A stretch of DNA of 64,000 nucleotides from Actinomyces marseillensis (GTDB taxonomy: Bacteria; Actinomycetota; Actinomycetes; Actinomycetales; Actinomycetaceae), in contig NZ_LT707420.1 in assembly GCF_900155605.1 (NCBI RefSeq), positions 1,080,690 to 1,144,689 on the forward strand, written 5' to 3'. Below the pieces are notes generated by a model. The model searched no databases and was not told where the DNA came from. It worked only from the letters and a program-made list of their open reading frames with translations. Positions within the stretch are counted from its first letter, which is position 1. Every line of letters starts with the position of its first letter. Of this stretch, positions 1-51,191 are shown one piece after another. A program made the translations under genes and the position numbers.

Positions 1-238
1 ACACTGCGCAAATTCCTCCGCCCGCGGGGATCCAATCGATACCGCCGAAAACCGCGCCGACGACGATCCCGGGGAAGATCGAGTGGACCGAGGCCTCGGC
101 GCCGAATTGCCAGTTGCGTAGATTGACCAGGGTTCCAACCGCGCCCGATGCAATCCCGAAGAGAACAAGGAAGAACAGAGGACGGAGGAAAAAGGGAGAC
201 TGCCACAGGGGCGGAGCGCTTACGATCGCGTTAAACAT
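1..238 (-). CDS. Metal ABC transporter permease, N-terminal part (cut by window edge)
   Basis: The reading frame on the minus strand opens with ATG at 238 and runs off the window start, giving 79 residues. It begins MFNAIVSAPPLWQSPFF, followed by a hydrophobic segment (FLVLFGIASGAVGTLVNLRNW) and a second one (IFPGIVVGAVFGGIDW), as in the ZnuB/MntB (ABC-3) permease family, which forms the membrane channel of zinc or manganese importers. The start overlaps the stop of the upstream ATPase gene by 8 bases, so translation is probably coupled. The assignment rests mainly on the adjoining ATPase and metal-binding lipoprotein; the substrate metal cannot be read from this fragment. Confidence 0.75.
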   Translation of the reverse strand, partial: MFNAIVSAPPLWQSPFFLRPLFFLVLFGIASGAVGTLVNLRNWQFGAEASVHSIFPGIVVGAVFGGIDWIPAGGGICAV

Positions 239-42500: not shown

Positions 42501-42577
42501 CGCGGGGTGGAGCAGTTCGGTAGCTCGCCGGGCTCATAACCCGGAGGTCGCAGGTTCAAATCCTGTCCCCGCTACCA
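42501..42577 (+). tRNA. Initiator tRNA-Met (CAT anticodon), CCA encoded
   Basis: 77 nucleotides including an encoded CCA. Anticodon CAT is at 42535-42537. Initiator hallmarks are present: no Watson-Crick pair at 1-72 (C against T) and three G-C pairs at the base of the anticodon stem (GGG/CCC). The other six acceptor pairs, the D-arm, anticodon arm and T-arm (TTCAAAT loop) are intact. A terminator follows at 42588. A degenerate second copy lies at 43528-43603. Confidence 0.93.
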
Positions 42578-42598
42578 TGCAAAAGATATCCCTAGCCA
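42574..42598. repeat. Left arm of a 25-bp inverted repeat around the inserted gene
   Basis: The 25 bases from the last ACCA of tRNA-fMet into the terminator stem recur as an exact inverted copy at 43503-43527, directly before the second tRNA copy. The arms enclose the AT-rich gene and so look like ends of an inserted segment. Confidence 0.85.
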
Positions 42599-42611
42599 TG
42601 AGGCTAGGGAT
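42588..42611 (+). terminator. Terminator after the initiator tRNA gene
   Basis: ATCCCTAGCC (42588-42597) pairs with 42602-42611 around loop ATGA, followed by TTTTTATTA. A strong intrinsic terminator 10 bases after the tRNA. Its left half is part of the 25-bp inverted repeat. Confidence 0.9.
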
Positions 42612-42715
42612 TTTTTATTAAACTTTTATGAAAATTGTATATGTGATGAAATGCAGTCGATTAAATAAATAAGTGTTATTCGATTTTTGATTTATATGCA
42701 TTGGAGAAGTTATAT

Positions 42716-43321
42716 ATGACATCAATAGATTTTTTAAACAAACTGTATAAAAACTTAGATTTACAAGGATATAGTCTTTCTTTTTCTCCAGCTAAGTCTA
42801 AGGACTATATGCTGTACTGCAATGGTAACTTTGTCGGAGGATTGTTTGACGACGAGTTGTGCTTAGTCTATGCAGACAGCGTGAATGACTTGCTCGGACA
42901 CCCAGAACCCGTCTACCGTGGCTACTCAAGCACAGCCTTACACAAAATGTTGATAATACCAGAGGAACACTGGAAAACAGCTTTAAAACTACTCTATGCG
43001 GAGAAATTTGACCATAAGCGATTGGTGTACGACATTACATATACCAGTATTGGCGCAGCTGTAGTGGAGGATTTCTATGACAAGAACATTGTGTTCTTAC
43101 AGTTCTGCTTCGAAAGAAAGCTACTTGTAAAAAACCCTCTAGATCAGCAGAACCGTATCCTTCAAATGGTATATCTAAACAAAGACCTGACTGAAACAGG
43201 CCAATATATATTTCCAAAACTGCTACAAAAATTTCTCATTTATATAGATAATAACGGGAAAACCAGTTTGGAATCCATGTTGAAACGTTGGTACAATAGC
43301 TTGGTTCTCCATAAAAACTAA
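42716..43321 (+). CDS. AT-rich gene of foreign origin, N-terminal TfoX/Sxy-like region
   Basis: A 201-aa protein of no certain family. The base composition is strikingly lower in GC than all neighbours and codons end mostly in A or T, so it is probably acquired, perhaps from a Firmicute-like source. Residues about 20-100 (DYMLYCNGNFVGGLFDDELCLVYADSVNDLL, GHPEPVYRGYSSTALHKMLI) resemble the TfoX/Sxy N-terminal domain of Firmicutes (pattern Y-x-x-G-x-x-x-G-G-x-x-D-D); this is a weak, by-eye match. The rest is unknown. ATG 42716 follows GGAG by 9 bases (a TTG at 42701 lies over that site). No transposase or integrase is present in the interval. Confidence 0.55.
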   Translation: MTSIDFLNKLYKNLDLQGYSLSFSPAKSKDYMLYCNGNFVGGLFDDELCLVYADSVNDLLGHPEPVYRGYSSTALHKMLIIPEEHWKTALKLLYAEKFDHKRLVYDITYTSIGAAVVEDFYDKNIVFLQFCFERKLLVKNPLDQQNRILQMVYLNKDLTETGQYIFPKLLQKFLIYIDNNGKTSLESMLKRWYNSLVLHKN

Positions 43322-43502
43322 TTCTAAGAAGATATACCACATTTTAACGTTGAAATTTGAATGAGTTTAGAAGTTTTTATCAACACTTTTTGTCCTATAG
43401 TCCGAAAAACAAAATGGATGCCACCTGTAATGTGCAGGATAGTATTCATGTGTTCCGCTTAATTCATAACATGTGTCCAGGATTCTGGGTGCATATCACA
43501 TT

Positions 43503-43527
43503 TGGCTAGGGATATCTTTTGCATGGT
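43503..43527. repeat. Right arm of the 25-bp inverted repeat
   Basis: Exact inverted copy of 42574-42598, ending one base before the second tRNA copy. It contains TATCTT at 43513-43518, the same hexamer as the -10 box of the first tRNA, though no good -35 lies upstream. Confidence 0.85.
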
Positions 43528-43603
43528 TGCGGGGTAGAGCAGCTGGTAGCTCGCCGGGCTCATAACCCGGAGGTCGCAGGTTCAAATCCTGTCTCCACTA
43601 CCA
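43528..43603 (+). tRNA. Second, degenerate tRNA-fMet-like copy (CAT anticodon)
   Basis: 76 nucleotides with CCA; anticodon CAT at 43561-43563. The segment from the D-arm to the T-arm is identical to the first copy for 49 bases, but the acceptor stem is damaged: T1 faces T72, C3 faces A70, and a G-T pair sits at 6-67. The D-loop is one base shorter. It may be a decaying duplicate, an attachment-site remnant or a diverged functional tRNA. It has its own terminator (43606-43649). Confidence 0.6.
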
Positions 43604-43731: not shown

Positions 43732-44772
43732 CTAGCCACGCTTGCGTCTGCGCAAGGCAGCGCCCGCACTTGCGCTCAGTGCTGCTGCCCCAGCAAGGAA
43801 AGCAATCGGGGCACCCGTGCGTGCGAGCGCCGGTTTTGACGGAGCCGATGCACTGGTTGACACTCCTGCCGGACTCGTGCTTGCGCTTACCGAAACCGTC
43901 GTTGACTCACTGGCTGAAGGAGATGTAGCGCTTGTACTCACTGAAGCCGTAGGAGTGCTTGCGGTAGGTGTTGTTGAGCTAACGGACGGAGAAGGCGAGG
44001 GGGTGGGGGTTGCACACGGCGAGGGGTCGAGGATTGGATCGACTTGTGTTCCAGCAGCCAGCGGAGCGACGGTGATATCGGCGGTCCAAGAGTCTGCAGA
44101 GGACTGTGCATTAGCGCCGGTAAATCCCGTGAGTGCGGCGGTGTTAGAGATGGTTGCCCCAGCGCCCTTTTCATTCACGCGTCCCAGCACATGCAGCGTC
44201 GTGTAGTTCATGAAACCGAGCTGCCCTGCGCCGCCGGCCCAGACTCCAGTGCAGTGATCATAAGAACCAAAGACCTTGGCATCAGTACAGGGGAAAGTGA
44301 AGTCTCGAATGAGGCCGTCGTCCGGGTTCGGATCAAAGTCGTGTCCTTCCCGGATCCAGAGGTGATCGACCGGAGGATAGGCAAGGATCTCGTTGTTGCA
44401 CAGTCGGGTCCACGAGTTCTGGTAGGTGATTCCCTCGGGCAGCAGGTCTTTCACATTGATGTTTGTCACTGTGCCAACGCCACGGTTAAGAATGTTGACA
44501 CGGTAAAGAACATAGTCGCCAACGTTAAAGTTCCCAATCGGGAAATTAGCCGTCGAATCGAGAGCGATGGGCAGTCCGTTCGCGCCATAAACAGGCTGAG
44601 CGCCAGACATCTGGACGTGGGCAGCGTCCTTCAAGACAATAAGATCAGCGCCCTGGTTTGGGTCAGCGTTGGCCTGGAACTTGGATGCTGAAACACCGAC
44701 AATTCCGAGTGCAACACAGGCACTGAGGAGTGCTGCACACAAACTGCGGCGTCGAGAATGACGGAGTGTCAT
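43732..44772 (-). CDS. Cell-wall-anchored surface protein (LARTG signal), paralogue 1
   Basis: A 346-aa secreted protein. A signal peptide (RRRSLCAALLSACVALGIVGVSASKFQANA) is followed by a domain with ADLIVLKDAAHVQMSGAQPVYGANGLPIALDST, VGDYVLYRVNILNRGVGTVTNINVKDLLPEGITYQNSW (DUF11-like fold, as in repeats of surface proteins), then a Ser/Thr/Pro-rich wall-spanning stalk (about 255-315) and a sorting signal: LARTG, hydrophobic segment, RRRKRG. The LAxTG form suits class E sortases of actinobacteria. Cys pairs in the domain (LCNNE, PCTD, HCTG) may form disulfides. It is downstream of a close paralogue. No sortase gene is in the window. Confidence 0.85.
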   Translation of the reverse strand: MTLRHSRRRSLCAALLSACVALGIVGVSASKFQANADPNQGADLIVLKDAAHVQMSGAQPVYGANGLPIALDSTANFPIGNFNVGDYVLYRVNILNRGVGTVTNINVKDLLPEGITYQNSWTRLCNNEILAYPPVDHLWIREGHDFDPNPDDGLIRDFTFPCTDAKVFGSYDHCTGVWAGGAGQLGFMNYTTLHVLGRVNEKGAGATISNTAALTGFTGANAQSSADSWTADITVAPLAAGTQVDPILDPSPCATPTPSPSPSVSSTTPTASTPTASVSTSATSPSASESTTVSVSASTSPAGVSTSASAPSKPALARTGAPIAFLAGAAALSASAGAALRRRKRG

Positions 44773-44802: not shown

Positions 44803-45831
44803 TTAATTGAGCTTACGCCTGCTCGAGAGGAAAGATGATCCTGCAATAGTGGTGAGTAGCGCTATTCCCCCAAGAAGAGCGAGGGGAACACCCGTCCGTG
44901 CGAGCGTGGTTGTCTGCGGTGCGCGAGAGGCTGCTGTCGCGCTTGTCATTGCCGAGGCCTCGCTAGCGCTAAGCGTGGTAGTGGGGGTACTTGTGGCCGC
45001 GGAGGGAGCGGATGTGCTCACCGATGGTGAGGGCTGCGAAGACGTGGGGGAATCTGAAGGCGTCGGTGTTGAGCAAGGTGAAGGGTCAGTGATCTCCTCA
45101 ACCTGTGCGCCGCTAGCAAGAGGTGCAACCGTAATATCTGCGGTCCATGAGTCAACGGAGAGCTTTGAATTTTGAGGAGAGATCTCCGTAAAACGAGCGG
45201 TGTTGGAAATCGTCTTTCCTGCGCCCTTCTTGTCGACACGTCCAAGGACAAACAAAGTGGAGTATGCGGCGTAACCAAAATACTCAGTGCTGCTCGTCCA
45301 TGTTCCGCTGCAGTGATCGTAGGTCCCTGAAGAGTATCCTTCAGGTGCGCGACAGGGGAAAGTAATCGGGCTATCTGGGTACAGACTCTCATCGGGATTC
45401 ACGCTTTGGCTTTCGCGAACCCACAGATGGTCGGTTGGAGCTATAACAGTGTGTGCGCATCTGCGTGTCCAGGAGTTCTGATAGGTGACCCCTTCGGGAA
45501 GGAACTCCGAAACGGTAAAACTGTTCACATTGGCATAATTGCGATTCAGAACATTGATGCGGTAAACAACGTAGTCTCCGACCTCAAAGCGTCCAATGGG
45601 GCCATCTGCGGTCGAATCAAGGCCAATCGGGAGGCCGAATTCGTCGTAGACGGGCTGTCCGCCAGACATCTGGACGTGGGCTGCATCCTTCAGGAGGATC
45701 AAGTCGGGGACGCGTTCTTCATCTGCCTGAGCCTGGAGTTGTGCGGTGGAGACCCCAGCAATACCCATTGCAACGCTTGCAGTGGCGAGGGCAGCAATGA
45801 TGCTCCACCCTCGCTGTGAACGCCTGAACAT
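44803..45831 (-). CDS. Cell-wall-anchored surface protein (LARTG signal), paralogue 2
   Basis: A 342-aa tandem paralogue of the neighbouring gene with the same plan: signal peptide, PDLILLKDAAHVQMSGGQPVYDEFGLPIGLDST, VGDYVVYRINVLNRNYANVNSFTVSEFLPEGVTYQNSW, a Ser/Thr/Pro stalk and a C-terminal LARTG followed by a hydrophobic stretch and SSRRKLN. Conserved central cysteines recur (RRCAHTV, PCRAP, HCSG). The two genes are 30 bases apart on the minus strand and probably form one transcript started upstream of 45831, within 191 bases of the divergent membrane-protein genes. Confidence 0.85.
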   Translation of the reverse strand: MFRRSQRGWSIIAALATASVAMGIAGVSTAQLQAQADEERVPDLILLKDAAHVQMSGGQPVYDEFGLPIGLDSTADGPIGRFEVGDYVVYRINVLNRNYANVNSFTVSEFLPEGVTYQNSWTRRCAHTVIAPTDHLWVRESQSVNPDESLYPDSPITFPCRAPEGYSSGTYDHCSGTWTSSTEYFGYAAYSTLFVLGRVDKKGAGKTISNTARFTEISPQNSKLSVDSWTADITVAPLASGAQVEEITDPSPCSTPTPSDSPTSSQPSPSVSTSAPSAATSTPTTTLSASEASAMTSATAASRAPQTTTLARTGVPLALLGGIALLTTIAGSSFLSSRRKLN

Positions 45832-46022
45832 AACGAGCCTCCAAAACCTTCAATACTCAGCAAGTTGTCTGAGCACAATACCGAGAAATGCTATCTGTAA
45901 GTAGCTGCTCAGTTCAAGAAAAACTGCCAGTTGTGCCTTAAAACTCATATGTTCTGAGCGAAAGGTCCTCTCTCACAACAGTTGTAGTATAAAAATGTTG
46001 AAACACATTTGAGGAGGACAAA

Positions 46023-46742
46023 ATGAGTGAACCGACGATGCCGCCGAGCCTGCCGCCCATGAGCGGACAGTCAATTCCGCAGGGAAGCGTGCCAGCAACC
46101 GGCAGGATTGAAAACGGTGACTACTATTTCGATAAGTTTGATGATCGTCCGATTCCCACAATGGTGAACCGACTGATCATTGAAAAAGGTTCATGGACTA
46201 AAGCAATTATTGGCTTCGTTTTGGGAGGAGTTTTCCTCCTTGCATGTGTCAATTCCGTGCGCACTGAACAGTCAGTTGTAGCGATGATTCTTTGTTTCTT
46301 GATCGGGGCTCTCTTGATTGTCGCCGGGCTCGCCATGATGCCCCGCAAAGACTACATCGACTACCAGGGCTTCTATGTCACGAGCATTTTTGGCTCGAAG
46401 CGCTTCCCCTGGCCTCATTCGCGTACCAGTTTCTACGTCCGTAACACGCGGGCTGGAAACGCAGCTTCGGCGAGCGCTCGGATGACACAGACCTTTGACG
46501 TGAAACTGATCAGTGCTGAGGGAATGCAGATTCCCTTGGGGATTGTCTTCACCGGTCCGAACTCCGATGAATTGGAATGGCGAGGCGTCGTTCAGTGCTC
46601 GCGTATTTGGGATTGGGGCGTTGCAAGGGGCTACACCGTTGAGACGGGGGAGTACATTCCTCTTTCGGGAGCTGGAATTCACCAAGCACTTCGTCAGTCT
46701 CAGGAAGAACGCTACGGTCTTCGCCAGAACTTCAATCAATAA
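46023..46742 (+). CDS. Two-TM membrane protein with PH-like domain, paralogue A
   Basis: First of three tandem paralogues (239 aa). A Pro-rich N-terminus (PTMPPSLPPMSGQ) precedes NGDYYFDKFDDRPIPTMVNRLIIEKGS, two hydrophobic segments (AIIGFVLGGVFLLACVNS, AMILCFLIGALLIVAGLAMMP, about 60-115) and a soluble part GFYVTSIFGSKRFPWPHSRTSFYVRN, VQCSRIWDWGVARGYTVETGEYIPL and a QEERYGLRQNFNQ tail. The segment R/K-x-x-P-W-P-x-S-R-T resembles the bacterial PH-like (bPH) domains; this is a guess by eye. RBS GAGGAGGAC is strong. Function unknown. Confidence 0.7.
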   Translation: MSEPTMPPSLPPMSGQSIPQGSVPATGRIENGDYYFDKFDDRPIPTMVNRLIIEKGSWTKAIIGFVLGGVFLLACVNSVRTEQSVVAMILCFLIGALLIVAGLAMMPRKDYIDYQGFYVTSIFGSKRFPWPHSRTSFYVRNTRAGNAASASARMTQTFDVKLISAEGMQIPLGIVFTGPNSDELEWRGVVQCSRIWDWGVARGYTVETGEYIPLSGAGIHQALRQSQEERYGLRQNFNQ

Positions 46743-47513
46743 ATGAGTAATCCCTACGCTCCTCAGCCTGCTGAGGATTCTCCTCAACTCTCACTTCCTC
46801 CCGCTGCTGGGGAGCGCTTCGTTATTAAGCCAGAGGAAGAGATCGTCTCGAAGATCGGGACGGTTGTAGACGGTGACTACTACTACGATCAAAACGACGA
46901 GAAGCCGATTCCTCTTGAAGCAAAGAGAATAGTCTTCGAAAAAGGTTCGACCTTTATGGTGATTTTGTCGTGGTGTTTAGCGCTCTTTCTTTCTATGCCC
47001 TTCCCGACGATGCTGGCCAAGGGAACAGACGCGGTCATTGACGCGGATCATCCATTGATCTGGTCCTTCATGCTAGGGATCGATCTGGTGATCATCGTCT
47101 TTCTTATTATTCATGGTTTCCTTTATTTCCCAAGTACAGATTGTCTTGACTCCCAAGGGATCACCCTGTCTATCTTGTCAAGGAAAATACAGATTCCGTG
47201 GCCGCACTCGCGAACGGGTTTGTATGTTCGCCGTGTGAACCAGAAAGGTCGAGCTCTTCAGACAGCTGAAGTGAAGGTCATTCGCCCAGACGGTTCCTCC
47301 GCGTTACTTCCTATTACCTTCAGGGGACTGGATTCAGTCAAAACTGAACGAGATGCTGTCATCCAATGCTCGCGGATCTGGGGCTGGGCGGTGGCAAAGG
47401 GCTATACCCAAGAGAGTGACGAATACATTCCTCTTGCGGGACTAGGGGTTCAGCAGTCTCTTCGCCGTCGCCAAGAAGAACGCTACGGTTTTCGCCAGAA
47501 CTTCAATCAATGA
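46743..47513 (+). CDS. Two-TM membrane protein with PH-like domain, paralogue B
   Basis: Second of the set (256 aa), starting immediately after the stop of paralogue A. It has one copy of NPYAPQPAEDS at the N-terminus, the added block GERFVIKPEEEIVSKIGTVVDGDYYYDQNDEKPIPLEA, two hydrophobic stretches, then STDCLDSQGITLSILSRKIQIPWPHSRTGLYVRR and the same CSRIWGWAVAKGY and RQEERYGFRQNFNQ endings. The shared start block with paralogue C is very alike, so B and C are the most recent duplicates. Function unknown. Confidence 0.75.
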   Translation: MSNPYAPQPAEDSPQLSLPPAAGERFVIKPEEEIVSKIGTVVDGDYYYDQNDEKPIPLEAKRIVFEKGSTFMVILSWCLALFLSMPFPTMLAKGTDAVIDADHPLIWSFMLGIDLVIIVFLIIHGFLYFPSTDCLDSQGITLSILSRKIQIPWPHSRTGLYVRRVNQKGRALQTAEVKVIRPDGSSALLPITFRGLDSVKTERDAVIQCSRIWGWAVAKGYTQESDEYIPLAGLGVQQSLRRRQEERYGFRQNFNQ

Positions 47514-48367
47514 GTAATCCCTACGCTCCTCAGCCTGCTGAAGGTAGTAATCCCTTCGCTCCTCAGCCTGCTGAAGGTAGTAATCCCTACGTTCCTCAGC
47601 CCGCTGAGGATTCTTCTCGAGTATCACTTCCTCCCGGTGCTGGGGAGCGCTTCGTCATTGAGCCAGAGGAAGAGATCGTCTCGAAGATCGGGACGCTTGT
47701 AGACGGTGACTACTACTACGATCTAAACGGCGAGAAGCCGATTCCTCTTGAGGCAGAACGAATAGTGGTTTTGACGGGGGCATGGATCGCCATTATTGTG
47801 CCCTGTGCTTTCGCGCTTTTCCTGTTCATGCCTTTCGTGAAAATGATGAGGGATGGCCCCGCTTCAGTGATCAATCAAGATCACCCAATTGTCTACTCGG
47901 TCATGCTGGGTGTTGATCTGCTGATCGTTATTTTGCTCGTTGTATTGAGCGTTCTTGTCTTCTGGCCCTGTAAGAATTACATCGACAAAGATGGTTTCCG
48001 CGTCACTTTCTGTTTCAGAACAATGCGGTCGCCTTGGCCACGCTCAAGGAGCGGCTTGTACGTGCAGATCCGATCGCGTCGAGGCAGACCCGTCAAGACA
48101 TCTCAAGCGAAGGTCGTTCGCCCAGACGGTTCCGCTATATCGATTCCCATTGCCTTGATGGATATTGACGCAGACGAGGTTGAAAAGAGCACTGTTATCC
48201 AGTGCTCTCGGATCTGGGATTGGGCAGTTGCGAAGGGCTACACCGAAGAGACCGGTGAATATACCCCTCTGAGGCGACATAGCAAAGACGACGTTTTTCG
48301 CCGTCGCCAAGAAGAACGCTACGGCCTTCGTGCCCATGTGAACGACAACCAGGAAAACCTCCAATAG
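47510..48367 (+). CDS. Two-TM membrane protein with PH-like domain, paralogue C, with triplicated N-terminal motif
   Basis: Third member (285 aa), ATGA overlap with B. The N-terminus holds three copies of an 11-residue unit (S-N-P-[YF]-[AV]-P-Q-P-A-E-[GD]; residues 2-34), then GERFVIEPEEEIVSKIGTLVDGDYYYDLNGEKPIPLEA, two hydrophobic segments (IAIIVPCAFALFLFMPF, VMLGVDLLIVILLVVLSVLVFW), and a soluble domain with RVTFCFRTMRSPWPRSRSGLYVQIR and VIQCSRIWDWAVAKGY. The extra units are absent from A and single in B, suggesting repeat expansion. The 46-base palindrome at 48379-48424 ends the set. Confidence 0.75.
   Translation: MSNPYAPQPAEGSNPFAPQPAEGSNPYVPQPAEDSSRVSLPPGAGERFVIEPEEEIVSKIGTLVDGDYYYDLNGEKPIPLEAERIVVLTGAWIAIIVPCAFALFLFMPFVKMMRDGPASVINQDHPIVYSVMLGVDLLIVILLVVLSVLVFWPCKNYIDKDGFRVTFCFRTMRSPWPRSRSGLYVQIRSRRGRPVKTSQAKVVRPDGSAISIPIALMDIDADEVEKSTVIQCSRIWDWAVAKGYTEETGEYTPLRRHSKDDVFRRRQEERYGLRAHVNDNQENLQ
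47513..47611 (+). repeat. Three tandem 33-bp repeats coding the Pro-rich N-terminus
   Basis: Units at 47513-47545, 47546-47578 and 47579-47611, with the first two nearly identical; a single related unit is at 46746-46778 in the gene before. In-frame coding repeats, prone to length change. Confidence 0.9.
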
Positions 48368-48378
48368 GTCTTTCCTTC

Positions 48379-48424
48379 GTATAAAGGTGTGGGCCCGGCA
48401 GCTGCCGGGCCCACACCTTTATAC
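48379..48424. terminator. 46-base perfect palindrome, bidirectional terminator
   Basis: A 23-bp stem without spacer (48379-48401 with 48402-48424) between the converging membrane-protein set and valS. Ends in A/T-rich flanks (TATAAAGG / CCTTTATA), so it can act as a terminator on both strands. Confidence 0.85.
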
Positions 48425-48431
48425 CTAGAAC

Positions 48432-51191
48432 TTAGTTCTTCTTCTTAGCCGGGGCTTCGCCCAACTCGAAGGAAGCGACACGGATGGTGCCTTCATCTTC
48501 GGTAGAGTCTGCCGAGGCCTCGAAGTGGGCAGGACCCTGGATCTTCGTCGCGGCTGCAAGGTCTTCCAGAACTTCCTCAAGCAGGGGGATCATCTGCTCG
48601 GGAGCAGATACCGTCACCTCAAGGAAGGGGGTCCTGGGGGAAACCTTTGCTTCGGACTTCACGCGGCGAAGGACCACGAGTGCCTCGGAGGCAACGCCCA
48701 GCAACACGCTGGAAGCGTCCTCGATCGCGCCCTCGATACTCCCATCAGGGGTGACCTCAAGGTTGGAGGTGGTCGGCCATGCAGCCTGGTGGACGCTGCC
48801 TTCGCGATACCAGCTCCACACCTCTTCGGTCACGAAGGGCAGGTAGGGAGCAAGCAAACGAACGAAAGTATCGATGGCGATCGCCAGCGCTGCGTGGGCA
48901 GAAGCAGAAGCCTGATCACTCCACTTGCCCTCGCGGTTGTAGGCGCGTTCCTTCACGAGCTCCAAGTAGTCATCGCAGAAGGTCCAGAAGAAGGACTCGG
49001 TGACTTCCAGTGCACGCGCGTGCTCGTAGTTTTCCAGAGCCGTGGTCGCAGAAGAGACAACCTCGCGCAAAGCGGCAAGCATCGAACGGTCGAGGGGCTG
49101 GACAACGTGCGTGATATCCAGATCCAGATCTGCGTCTCCACCCATCGTGAGAGCGAACTTCGAAGCGTTAAGTACCTTGATGGCCAGGCGACGGCCAATC
49201 TTCATCTGGGATTCATCGAAAGCAGCATCCAAGCCCAGTCGAGCAGATGCCGCCCAGTAGCGCACCGCGTCCGAGCCGAACTTCTCGAGCAAGCCCATGG
49301 GGGTGACGACATTGCCCTTAGACTTCGACATCTTCTTGTGATCCGAATCCAAGATCCACCCCGAAAGGCCTGCGTGTGCCCAGGGGAGTGCGCCAAATTC
49401 CAGATCGGCACGGACGACCGTTGAGAACAGCCAGGTTCGAATGATGTCCTGCCCCTGCGGACGCAAGTCCATCGGGTAGGTACGCGAGAACAAGTCCTCG
49501 TCCTCAAGCCAACCGCAGGCAATCTGCGGAGAGAGGGACGAGGTCGCCCAAGTATCCATGATGTCGAGTTCGCCGACGAAACCACCGGCTACTCCTCGCT
49601 GATCCTCGGTGTAACCGGGAGCCGTATCCGATGAGGGATCGACAGGAAGCTGATCTTCGCTGGGGGTGATGATCTGGGTGTAATCGACTTCGCCACTGTC
49701 ATCAACGCGGTACCACAGGGGGAAGGGGACGCCGAAGAAACGCTGACGGGAGACCAACCAGTCGTTGTTGAGGCCGCGTACCCAGTTTTCGTAGCGCACG
49801 CGCATGAAATCCGGGTGGAACTCCAGTTCCTTACCGCGCTCGATGAGTTCCTCGTTCAGGTCTTTGTCCGTTGCAGGATTGACCCACGGCTTGCCGCCGT
49901 TACGGATGTACCACTGACGCGAAGTGACGATCTCCAGGGGTTTGTCGCCCTTTTCGAAGAAGTTCGTCTGGCGCATCGTCTTCTGAGGTTCACCGCGCAT
50001 CTCGCCGCTTGCCTCGAGGCGTGCCACTAGGGCCTCGCGAGCAGAGAAGGTCGTCTTCCCCGCAAGCTCAGCGAAGGCCTCGCGACCCTCATCGGTGGTG
50101 ATCCATTCGGGGGTTTCGGTCTGCAGGCGACCATCCTTGCGCAAAACGGTGCGGAGCGGAAGGTTCAGGTCGCGCCACCAATCGATATCGGTCGTGTCGC
50201 CGAAAGTACAGCACATGGCGATACCGGCGCCCTTGTCCATCTCCGCCTCGGGGTGGGGAAGAACAGGGACCTCAACACCGAAAACGGGGGATGCAACTGT
50301 GGTACCGAACAGTGGCTTGTAGCGCTCGTCGTCGGGGTGAGCAATCAGGGCCACGCACGCGGGAAGCAGTTCGGGGCGAGTCGTCTCGATGCAGACATCA
50401 ACACCGTTCTCAACCGGCGCACCGGCTGCAGCGGCCTCGGCAGCGCGCGCGGGGTCGGTGATGTGGAAGGCGAGGCGGTGGTAGAAGCCCGGGTATTCGC
50501 GGCTCTCAAGCTCAGCCTGAGCAACCGCAGTCTGGAAGGTAACGTCCCACAGGCCAGGAGCCTCAGCCTGGTAGGCCTCGCCACGCTCAAGATTGCGCAG
50601 GAAAGCAGCCTGGGCAACCTTGCGGGCACGTGTACCAATGGTCTGGTAGTTCTGGGTCCAGTCAACCGACAGGCCCAGGTGGCGCCACAGGTCCTCGAAG
50701 TGCTTCTCATCTTCAACGGTCAAGCGCTCACACAGTTCCACGAAATTACGACGCGAGATCGGCACCTGATCGCGAGCCTTGATGGACTTGCCTTCGCCGC
50801 CAACGTGCGGGGGCTCGAAGTTCGGATCATAGGGGAGGGTTGCATCAACGCGAACCCCAAAGTAGTTCTGCACGCGGCGCTCTGTGGGCAGACCATTGTC
50901 GTCCCAGCCCATGGGGTAGAAGACCGATTTGCCCAGCATTCGCTGGAAACGCGCGACGACGTCGGTGTGCGTGTATGAGAACACGTGGCCGACGTGAAGC
51001 GAACCCGAAACCGTGGGCGGGGGAGTGTCAATCGAGTAAACCTCTTGGCGGGGGCGGCTTCGATCAAAACGATAGGTTCCCTGATCTTCCCAACGCTGGT
51101 TCCACTGGGCTTCGAGGCCTTCAGTGGCGACCTTGTCCGGCACCTGGGGTGCGGGCAGCGAGGTGGGTTCGGCTTGGCGCTGAGCGCTCAT
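48432..51191 (-). CDS. valS: Valine-tRNA ligase
   Basis: Class Ia aminoacyl-tRNA synthetase of 919 aa charging tRNA-Val. HIGH signature is SGSLHVGHVFSYTHTD (about residue 60) and the KMSKS loop is HKKMSKSKGNVVTPMGLLEKFGSDAVRYW; the editing domain (about 190-420) and the anticodon-binding domain follow. RBS GGAGAA precedes ATG 51191. Residues 1-20 are a disordered extension. It stands alone and meets the membrane-protein set at the palindrome. No T-box leader is visible upstream, and the gap 51192-51436 shows nothing clear. Confidence 0.95.
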   Translation of the reverse strand: MSAQRQAEPTSLPAPQVPDKVATEGLEAQWNQRWEDQGTYRFDRSRPRQEVYSIDTPPPTVSGSLHVGHVFSYTHTDVVARFQRMLGKSVFYPMGWDDNGLPTERRVQNYFGVRVDATLPYDPNFEPPHVGGEGKSIKARDQVPISRRNFVELCERLTVEDEKHFEDLWRHLGLSVDWTQNYQTIGTRARKVAQAAFLRNLERGEAYQAEAPGLWDVTFQTAVAQAELESREYPGFYHRLAFHITDPARAAEAAAAGAPVENGVDVCIETTRPELLPACVALIAHPDDERYKPLFGTTVASPVFGVEVPVLPHPEAEMDKGAGIAMCCTFGDTTDIDWWRDLNLPLRTVLRKDGRLQTETPEWITTDEGREAFAELAGKTTFSAREALVARLEASGEMRGEPQKTMRQTNFFEKGDKPLEIVTSRQWYIRNGGKPWVNPATDKDLNEELIERGKELEFHPDFMRVRYENWVRGLNNDWLVSRQRFFGVPFPLWYRVDDSGEVDYTQIITPSEDQLPVDPSSDTAPGYTEDQRGVAGGFVGELDIMDTWATSSLSPQIACGWLEDEDLFSRTYPMDLRPQGQDIIRTWLFSTVVRADLEFGALPWAHAGLSGWILDSDHKKMSKSKGNVVTPMGLLEKFGSDAVRYWAASARLGLDAAFDESQMKIGRRLAIKVLNASKFALTMGGDADLDLDITHVVQPLDRSMLAALREVVSSATTALENYEHARALEVTESFFWTFCDDYLELVKERAYNREGKWSDQASASAHAALAIAIDTFVRLLAPYLPFVTEEVWSWYREGSVHQAAWPTTSNLEVTPDGSIEGAIEDASSVLLGVASEALVVLRRVKSEAKVSPRTPFLEVTVSAPEQMIPLLEEVLEDLAAATKIQGPAHFEASADSTEDEGTIRVASFELGEAPAKKKN

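Follow-up and report, generated by a model that had tools for sequence, protein, structure and literature searches.

Apparently old cores and exchanged ends in a three-gene array of membrane-hairpin paralogues from Actinomyces marseillensis

The window analyzed here is the whole stretch of 64,000 nucleotides (nt) from Actinomyces marseillensis (contig NZ_LT707420.1, positions 1,080,690 to 1,144,689), and its subject is a tandem array of three genes, A, B, and C, beside a gene that we take from its sequence to be valS. Each encodes a protein with a predicted transmembrane (TM) hairpin and a possible pleckstrin homology (PH)-like domain, and B and C also carry an N-terminal tail built from an 11-residue unit. 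The account that we consider probable as a whole is that this is an old, probably coupled three-copy array whose ends have been exchanged between neighbors, that C was lost from the nearest relative, Actinomyces sp. S6-Spd3, and, with low confidence, that the proteins have a scaffold or chaperone role. On comparing the sequences, the genes do not look recent; what does is recombination of the ends between neighbors, together with lengthening of a short repeat. The interest lies in this mosaic of constant ends, free cores, and a changing number of genes. The features of the array are as follows, in coordinates of the window.

46023-46742, plus strand: gene A, 239 amino acids, TM-hairpin/PH-like protein without the repeat unit (from the list of open reading frames and the comparisons)
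46743-47513, plus strand: gene B, 256 amino acids, paralogue with one unit and an A-like tail (RQNFNQ)
47510-48367, plus strand: gene C, 285 amino acids, paralogue with three units and the tail RAHVNDNQENLQ
46746-46778, plus strand: single 33-bp unit of B (SNPYAPQPAED), from the sequence
47513-47611, plus strand: three 33-bp units of C (47513-47545, 47546-47578, 47579-47611), from Tandem Repeats Finder and the self-match
46746-46933, plus strand: homogenized head of B, identical at 172 of 188 nt to C 47579-47766
47579-47766, plus strand: homogenized head of C, partner of B 46746-46933
46704-46742, plus strand: 3' end of A, near-identical to the 3' end of B
47475-47513, plus strand: 3' end of B, near-identical to that of A, running into the start of C as that of A runs into the start of B
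47461-47488 (in B) and 48297-48324 (in C), plus strand: 28-nt exact match, where the crossover that removed C in S6-Spd3 is likely to have taken place

The initial annotation had recognized three tandem paralogues with a shared membrane layout and C-terminal block, the unit being absent in A, single in B, and triple in C, and all of this is borne out by the open reading frames, the alignment, and the repeat scans. Identity across aligned codons is 42% for A and B, 37% for A and C, and 55% for B and C. Two hydrophobic segments are found in each protein, within residues 57-109 of A, 68-135 of B, and 82-159 of C, and the common C-terminal block surrounds the motif Q-C-S-R-I-W-x-W. A search of the genome (2.0 Mb, 2 contigs) finds no fourth family gene beyond A, B, and C.

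The age of the cores is read from synonymous sites. By the Nei-Gojobori method in 30-codon windows, the proportion of synonymous differences (pS) between B and C stays at 0.05-0.13 across columns 16-75, reaches 0.39 in the window 61-90, runs at 0.61-0.83 in the windows that span columns 76-210, and lies at 0.40-0.74 beyond them. The corresponding values between the window and S6-Spd3 are 0.17 for valS, 0.19 and 0.25 for the neighboring wall genes, 0.09 for A, and 0.14 for B. Because the core pS far exceeds the 0.17 of valS, the cores of B and C would have parted long before the window and S6-Spd3 did. A tree of 34 cores agrees in placing C with the pair formed by B and the B-type gene of S6-Spd3, called S6B here, with support of 100/96; A groups with its S6-Spd3 counterpart (S6A) and two single-gene relatives at 99/97, and all seven come together at 100/99. 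The tree takes 34 of the 38 gathered rows, with one omitted by name (L026, the same protein as L019) and three dropped because their cores were short or absent; neither the distant L015 nor the fused L049 was included. Judged on these alignments, the divergence of the B and C cores is ancient, with a split preceding that from S6-Spd3, and the tree favors loss of C over recent growth of the array.

How C may have been lost is suggested by the locus of S6-Spd3 (L016), which holds A (98% amino acid identity) and one B-type gene. The final codons of S6B are those of C's tail, in a 57-nt exact 3' match to C. A crossover at the 28-nt match between B and C would delete C and leave a B that ends in C's tail, as in S6-Spd3, and we propose that the S6-Spd3 lineage dropped C in this way. 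Two further relatives, 331_TPYO (L017) and ph3 (L018), have one A-type gene each at the locus. In the genus as sampled, a family member is present in 6 of 35 genomes and valS in all 35; in only four, of 30 valS loci inspected with the two longest frames in the ~1.5 kb flank of each examined, does a family gene stand beside valS. The homologues of two further genomes, G007 and G008, share a contig with valS but stand ~12-14 kb away from it.

An alternative to loss is that C is not ancestral, that an S6-like two-gene array is old, and that a diverged B-type core was gained by horizontal exchange through the shared ends. A diverged core between young ends fits such an import as well as it fits old duplication, and no row from another genome is nearer to C in the core tree than B and S6B are. 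The downstream flank of valS, in the 30 genus genomes inspected (L056-L085), carries differing genes, by eye acyl-CoA ligase-like, ATPase-like, and others, and since its gene content differs by species this is a changeable spot, as import would have it. No donor was found, however, and import by itself leaves unexplained why the window's B has the tail of A and S6B has the tail of C, which a one-crossover loss explains; we regard import as possible but doubtful.

The ends give a different picture from the cores. B and C mismatch at 13 of 180 nt in B codons 1-60 (7%) and at 228 of 540 in codons 61-240 (42%), and where they encode the same residue the codons differ at 3 of 50 positions in the head and 38 of 71 in the core (Fisher p 1.6e-8). 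The orthologues B and S6B are mismatched at 17 of 174 nt in the head and 26 of 540 in the core, which makes the head the less conserved part, and since it changes faster than the core, constraint does not explain the likeness of the B and C heads. Of the 274 sites variable among B, C, and S6B, the first 22 (to nt 165 of B) include 11 at which B equals C and the other 252 include 10, a clustering that 0 of 10000 permutations reach. The boundary of the head is sharp and falls near nt 165-180 of B, ahead of the first hydrophobic segment. At the 3' end, the last ~36 nt of B nearly match those of A, both encoding RQNFNQ, and the A/B and B/C junctions have a 33-nt exact run in common that passes through the start codon. 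Segments more alike than the cores, sharp boundaries, and a likeness beyond what constraint accounts for are what an array under gene conversion displays, and all three are found here. A single conversion tract that moved the A/B junction and the head of B onto the B/C junction and the head of C would explain both the homogenized heads and the like junctions. We would place it about the time of the split from S6-Spd3, after which the 33-bp unit would have multiplied in C by slippage or unequal recombination.

The initial annotation proposed instead that the array arose by recent tandem duplication with repeat growth. The near-identity of the 33-bp units, which sustains the growth part of that proposal, and the near-identity of the B and C heads speak for it. 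The duplication part fails on the cores, where the pS of 0.61-0.83 over columns 76-210 compares with 0.17 for valS and the tree has B and C parting earlier than B and S6B, and we hold it to be very improbable. Deep divergence of the copies, named there as the observation that would count against it, is present in the B and C cores and not at their ends. That selection held the heads of B and C alike without recombination is hardly credible either, for while head and core roles differ and constraint might differ with them, the head evolves faster than the core between B and S6B, the boundary is sharp, and the likeness extends to synonymous sites. The lesson is that a signature of recent duplication can mislead, as an old array appears young when its ends copy between neighbors.

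The repeat itself is well delimited. Tandem Repeats Finder gives the C array as 2.9 copies of 33 bp with 93% match and a score of 169, the only other array that it lists in the window scoring 56, and the self-match at lag 33 is 58 of 62 bases, with no other lag from 20 to 59 in the window exceeding 34 of 62. The units of C read, in order, SNPYAPQPAEG, SNPFAPQPAEG, and SNPYVPQPAED. Units 1 and 2 are one base apart, and unit 3 has the ending GAGGAT in common with the unit of B. A has no such unit, and the B of S6-Spd3 has one, altered to SNLHDPQPAED. As 33 bases make 11 codons, a change of copy number keeps the frame, so that tail length can vary and there is no on/off switch. When the repeat tail of C was searched in the genome, only B matched besides C itself, the third match being chance-like at E = 0.77, and no tail common to other proteins of the genome was seen. 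A coarse MxxPY-type pattern hit one unrelated-looking site in the genome and is a poor test, since it missed B and C themselves. A short hairpin can be formed by part of the unit (TCCTCAGCCCGCTGAGGA); the pattern of the 16-mer involved occurs genome-wide only in B and C, and its origin from a dispersed repeat was rejected for that reason.

To place the array in its family, we use a 12-member profile, which matches 50 of 213 Actinomycetaceae genomes, spread over 6 of the 36 genera; the 393 other genomes of the class sample gave no match, at a threshold of E 1e-4 and with scoring limited to the six best candidates of each genome. By profile matching the family is thus found here only in Actinomycetaceae, and no relative appears in the IMG/VR viral contigs. 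At least two matches are seen in 36 of the 50 genomes, in counts that include gene pieces and so overstate gene number. Among the 24 loci L026-L049, neighboring or fused second copies occur at 5 (L031, L034, L039, L046, L049), which is a lower bound because the loci carry just ~1.5 kb of flank, and N-terminal tandem arrays occur at 10 (L026, L031, L032, L034, L035, L037, L038, L041, L043, L046); start codons of homologues are our choice. The cleanest case of length change is that of the close genomes G007 and G008, whose cores are 93% identical in nucleotides, with 115 versus 150 residues before the PIP motif and 5.1 versus 8.2 copies of a 30-bp unit in the tail. Repeat growth on the N-terminal tail is therefore real in the family, with units that differ by lineage; the length change is observed in homologues, the window's species being represented by one genome. 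These Actinomycetaceae homologues (G007/G008 and the g3 genomes) belong with A-C to one family by profile and resemble them in having N-terminal arrays and neighboring or fused copies. They are unlike A-C in their tail units, of QYGxPGG and YGQPGQ types, and because the unit sequences differ the tail arrays are probably independent in origin.

Three observations on the homologous loci stand beside this. L008, the locus of the G007 homologue, has a second 33-bp tandem array at 2507-2656 (4.5 copies, 95%) just upstream of the homologue's start, and none is listed in L009. At L008 1001-1500, on the minus strand, G007 has a second tandem copy that lacks the TM hairpin and contains frame changes; the copy in G008 is an open frame of 210 amino acids. 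Within positions 1-2112 of L049, two family modules share a single open frame, which looks like the fusion of a tandem pair. The family is thus marked by its confinement here to Actinomycetaceae, by the lack of a Pfam match for A-C, and by N-terminal repeats seemingly grown separately in several lineages, and it offers naturally graded tail lengths, set on a conserved core, that are useful for probing the role of the tail.

What the conserved core is was approached by structure prediction from an eight-sequence alignment. The best of five models of A has a mean predicted local distance difference test (pLDDT) score of 74.6. Its first 25 residues are of low confidence; there follow a strand at 50-55, a helical hairpin at 58-104 (helices 58-80 and 85-104), strands at 108-113, 116-121, 124-128, 137-141, 156-163, and 169-178, and a helix at 181-202, with short strands at 28-30 and 33-36 and a helix at 218-231 as extras. 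The PH-like superfold is defined by seven strands and a C-terminal helix cap, for which the model offers the longer strands and helix 181-202, with Z scores to known members that are weak (3.7-5.2). In the VIA structure search with A, 8kei_D from the NOX2/p22phox/EROS complex, a chain that we presume from its numbering to be EROS, scores Z = 6.8 with 145 residues aligned at a root-mean-square deviation of 5.0; the phosphotyrosine-binding (PTB) domain of CCM2 follows at Z = 5.2, SSRP1 at 4.4, and others near 4, the PH, PTB, and FERM chains together covering 3.7-5.2. Both 8kei_D and the PH-like chains align on both sides of A's hairpin. No PF08000-type bacterial PH structure is among the VIA rows listed, an absence that proves nothing. 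The top Foldseek rows are transposase, respiratory complex, and RhoGEF chains with low template modeling scores.

The initial annotation had guessed at a bacterial PH (bPH) fold and asked for such a structural search; the PH-like chains lend the guess weak support, as do weak matches to bPH_6, seen in 2 of 12 relatives at a best E of 0.0011 and in 2 of 28 at a best E of 0.0034, while Pfam assigns no bPH family to A-C. NCBIfam gives nothing near its cut-off for A, B, or C, PADLOC has no match for A and C, and profiles searched against PDB sequences reach a best E of only 0.49. The best PHROGs match of A, phrog_15036 of function unknown (E = 0.0067), covers residues 55-109, the hairpin, and is taken as a hydrophobic-helix match. 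On the strength of the model, we consider it probable that the family's fold is PH-like.

As to orientation, the charges that flank the TM pair, judged by eye, suggest with low confidence that each protein is held in the membrane by its hairpin with both ends cytosolic. The PH-like domain would then be split by the hairpin, and the protein might act as a scaffold or chaperone for membrane proteins, a role that we put forward tentatively. The cores would differ in partner, and the disordered repeat tail that B and C share would set valency or reach by its length.

The main functional rival is that the array acts like the bPH membrane proteins of YdbS/YdbT type, in movement or protection of peptides. 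Two TM helices with one PH-like domain and adjacent, co-oriented genes are in its favor, and for the DdE/DdF pair of enterocin DD14 the account in PMC8657885 reports transport. Against it, A, B, and C have no Pfam bPH match, no bacteriocin gene was recognized by eye beside the array, where no bacteriocin search was made, and no open reading frame in the 42-52 kb part of the window, the rest of the genome not having been searched, resembles the YdbT-like partner with six TM helices, three PH domains, and the same orientation. We think this function unlikely. A more speculative proposal, improbable in our estimation, is that the array is a device for core exchange, in which like ends serve as recombination handles and cores are swapped, imported, or dropped, while translation start, repeat tail, and coupling are retained and relatives come to have three, two, or one gene. 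As part of the same proposal the NP(Y/F)xPQP repeats would act as multivalent ligands whose target might be the PTB-like groove of neighboring PH-like domains, and were it true, repeat number would tune cross-linking among the proteins of the array.

The coupling that enters our account is read from the junctions. A has a clear ribosome-binding site, and reading the sequence before B and C we see no comparable site; the ATG of B directly abuts the stop of A, and the start of C overlaps the end of B by 4 nt (ATGA). Because B abuts A's stop, C overlaps B, and no binding site is seen at C, translational coupling from A through B to C is likely. A palindrome after C is perhaps a two-way terminator that closes the unit, and it is absent from the terminator-scan listing.

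46011-46017, plus strand: ribosome-binding site of gene A (GAGGAGG), read from the sequence
48379-48424, no strand: 46-nt perfect palindrome between C and valS, identical in S6-Spd3 (L016; 100% reverse-strand match)

Several points weigh against the favored account of an old array with exchanged ends and a scaffold or chaperone role. Over the whole gene, the B/C divergence is unsaturated, with a dS (synonymous substitutions per synonymous site) of 0.94 and a pS of 0.54. C has a long branch in the core tree, 0.57, and its placing needs some caution, and the loss of C in S6-Spd3 rests on a single draft genome. Within the head, the difference between B/C and B/S6B is not significant (p = 0.31), so the exchange is dated only loosely, to near or after the S6-Spd3 split. 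On the structural side, the other four models of A have mean pLDDT of 52.5-65.4 and the model of C is poor at 48.8; in the top-ranking VIA row, 7q21_K (Z = 7.4), and in several more, the alignment falls mainly on the hairpin; no VIA chain reaches Z of at least 8, the level that the tool calls safe; Foldseek finds no solved fold for the model of A at E of 0.001 or below; and no bPH family of Pfam appears for A, B, or C up to E = 10, the gathering score not being reached. For the role, no neighbor or experiment indicates a partner.

The array stands between two wall genes with DUF11 matches and the convergent valS, all three on the minus strand.

43732-44772, minus strand: second DUF11 wall protein
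44803-45831, minus strand: DUF11 wall protein with an LARTG-type C-terminus, divergent neighbor of the array
48432-51191, minus strand: valS (valyl-tRNA synthetase), convergent neighbor

The initial annotation was right that the array lies beside duplicated wall proteins; with 54% amino acid identity and saturated pS, the two wall genes are, by these values, an old duplicate pair in their own right. In each of the four genomes whose array lies at valS, similar wall genes are found upstream in divergent orientation, one such gene in L017 and two in L018. By eye, none like them is seen in the ~3.6-kb loci of G007 and G008, and L019 has an open reading frame for an LPSTG-type surface protein ~1 kb downstream. 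A link between the array and the DUF11 wall genes was considered and is not established. Farther out, at 42501-43603, a ~0.95-kb AT-rich segment (GC 0.36) has a tRNA-Met copy on either side and 32-nt inverted repeats (97%) as its bounds. Its open reading frame, 42701-43321 on the plus strand (206 amino acids), has no significant match in Pfam, PHROGs, or PADLOC, and L016, L017, and L018 each have one such tRNA copy without the segment, which looks like a small inserted element. The C-terminal part of valS in L017 (NZ_JVLH01000006.1) is 97% identical to that of the window, and its label as Trueperella pyogenes is probably wrong.

Judged by title or abstract, nothing found in the open-access literature searched describes this array. 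Its nearest counterparts are compared here by architecture. For the DUF304, DUF1200, and DUF2244 families, Xu et al. 2010 note a pair of TM helices at the N-terminus and PHb domains predicted to be intracellular, and they suggest oligomeric transporters or pores for TM-anchored bPH proteins (PMC2817789). A-C are like bPH_6 (PF10756) and the membrane-anchored bPH proteins in their predicted TM helices and putative, probably cytosolic PH-like domain, and unlike them in the repeat-bearing N-terminal tail and the conserved R-I-W-x-W helix. In that paper's treatment, its bPH families also seem to be without strand 1 (PMC2817789), whereas the model of A has a strand before the hairpin. YdbS is presented as two TM helices with one PHb2 domain (PMC8657885), and the YdbS/YdbT and DdE/DdF pairs, as described there, share with A-C their adjacent, co-oriented genes. 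Those pairs consist of one small and one large protein and A-C of three paralogues of similar size, with no Pfam sequence match to link them.

The split-PH chaperones are compared by the order of their elements. EROS/CYBC1 is described as a PH-like fold interrupted by an antiparallel TM pair (PMC9767466), and a kinship of Ycf4 with EROS is reported (PMC13296129). No sequence similarity of A-C to EROS or Ycf4 is shown, and the Z of 6.8 to 8kei_D is below the level called safe. In the descriptions at hand, the disordered tail of EROS is C-terminal and that of A-C N-terminal, and the EROS TM pair follows strand 2. With these differences, the model of A has an order of elements similar to that given for EROS and Ycf4, consistent with a TM hairpin inserted near the start of a PH-like domain.

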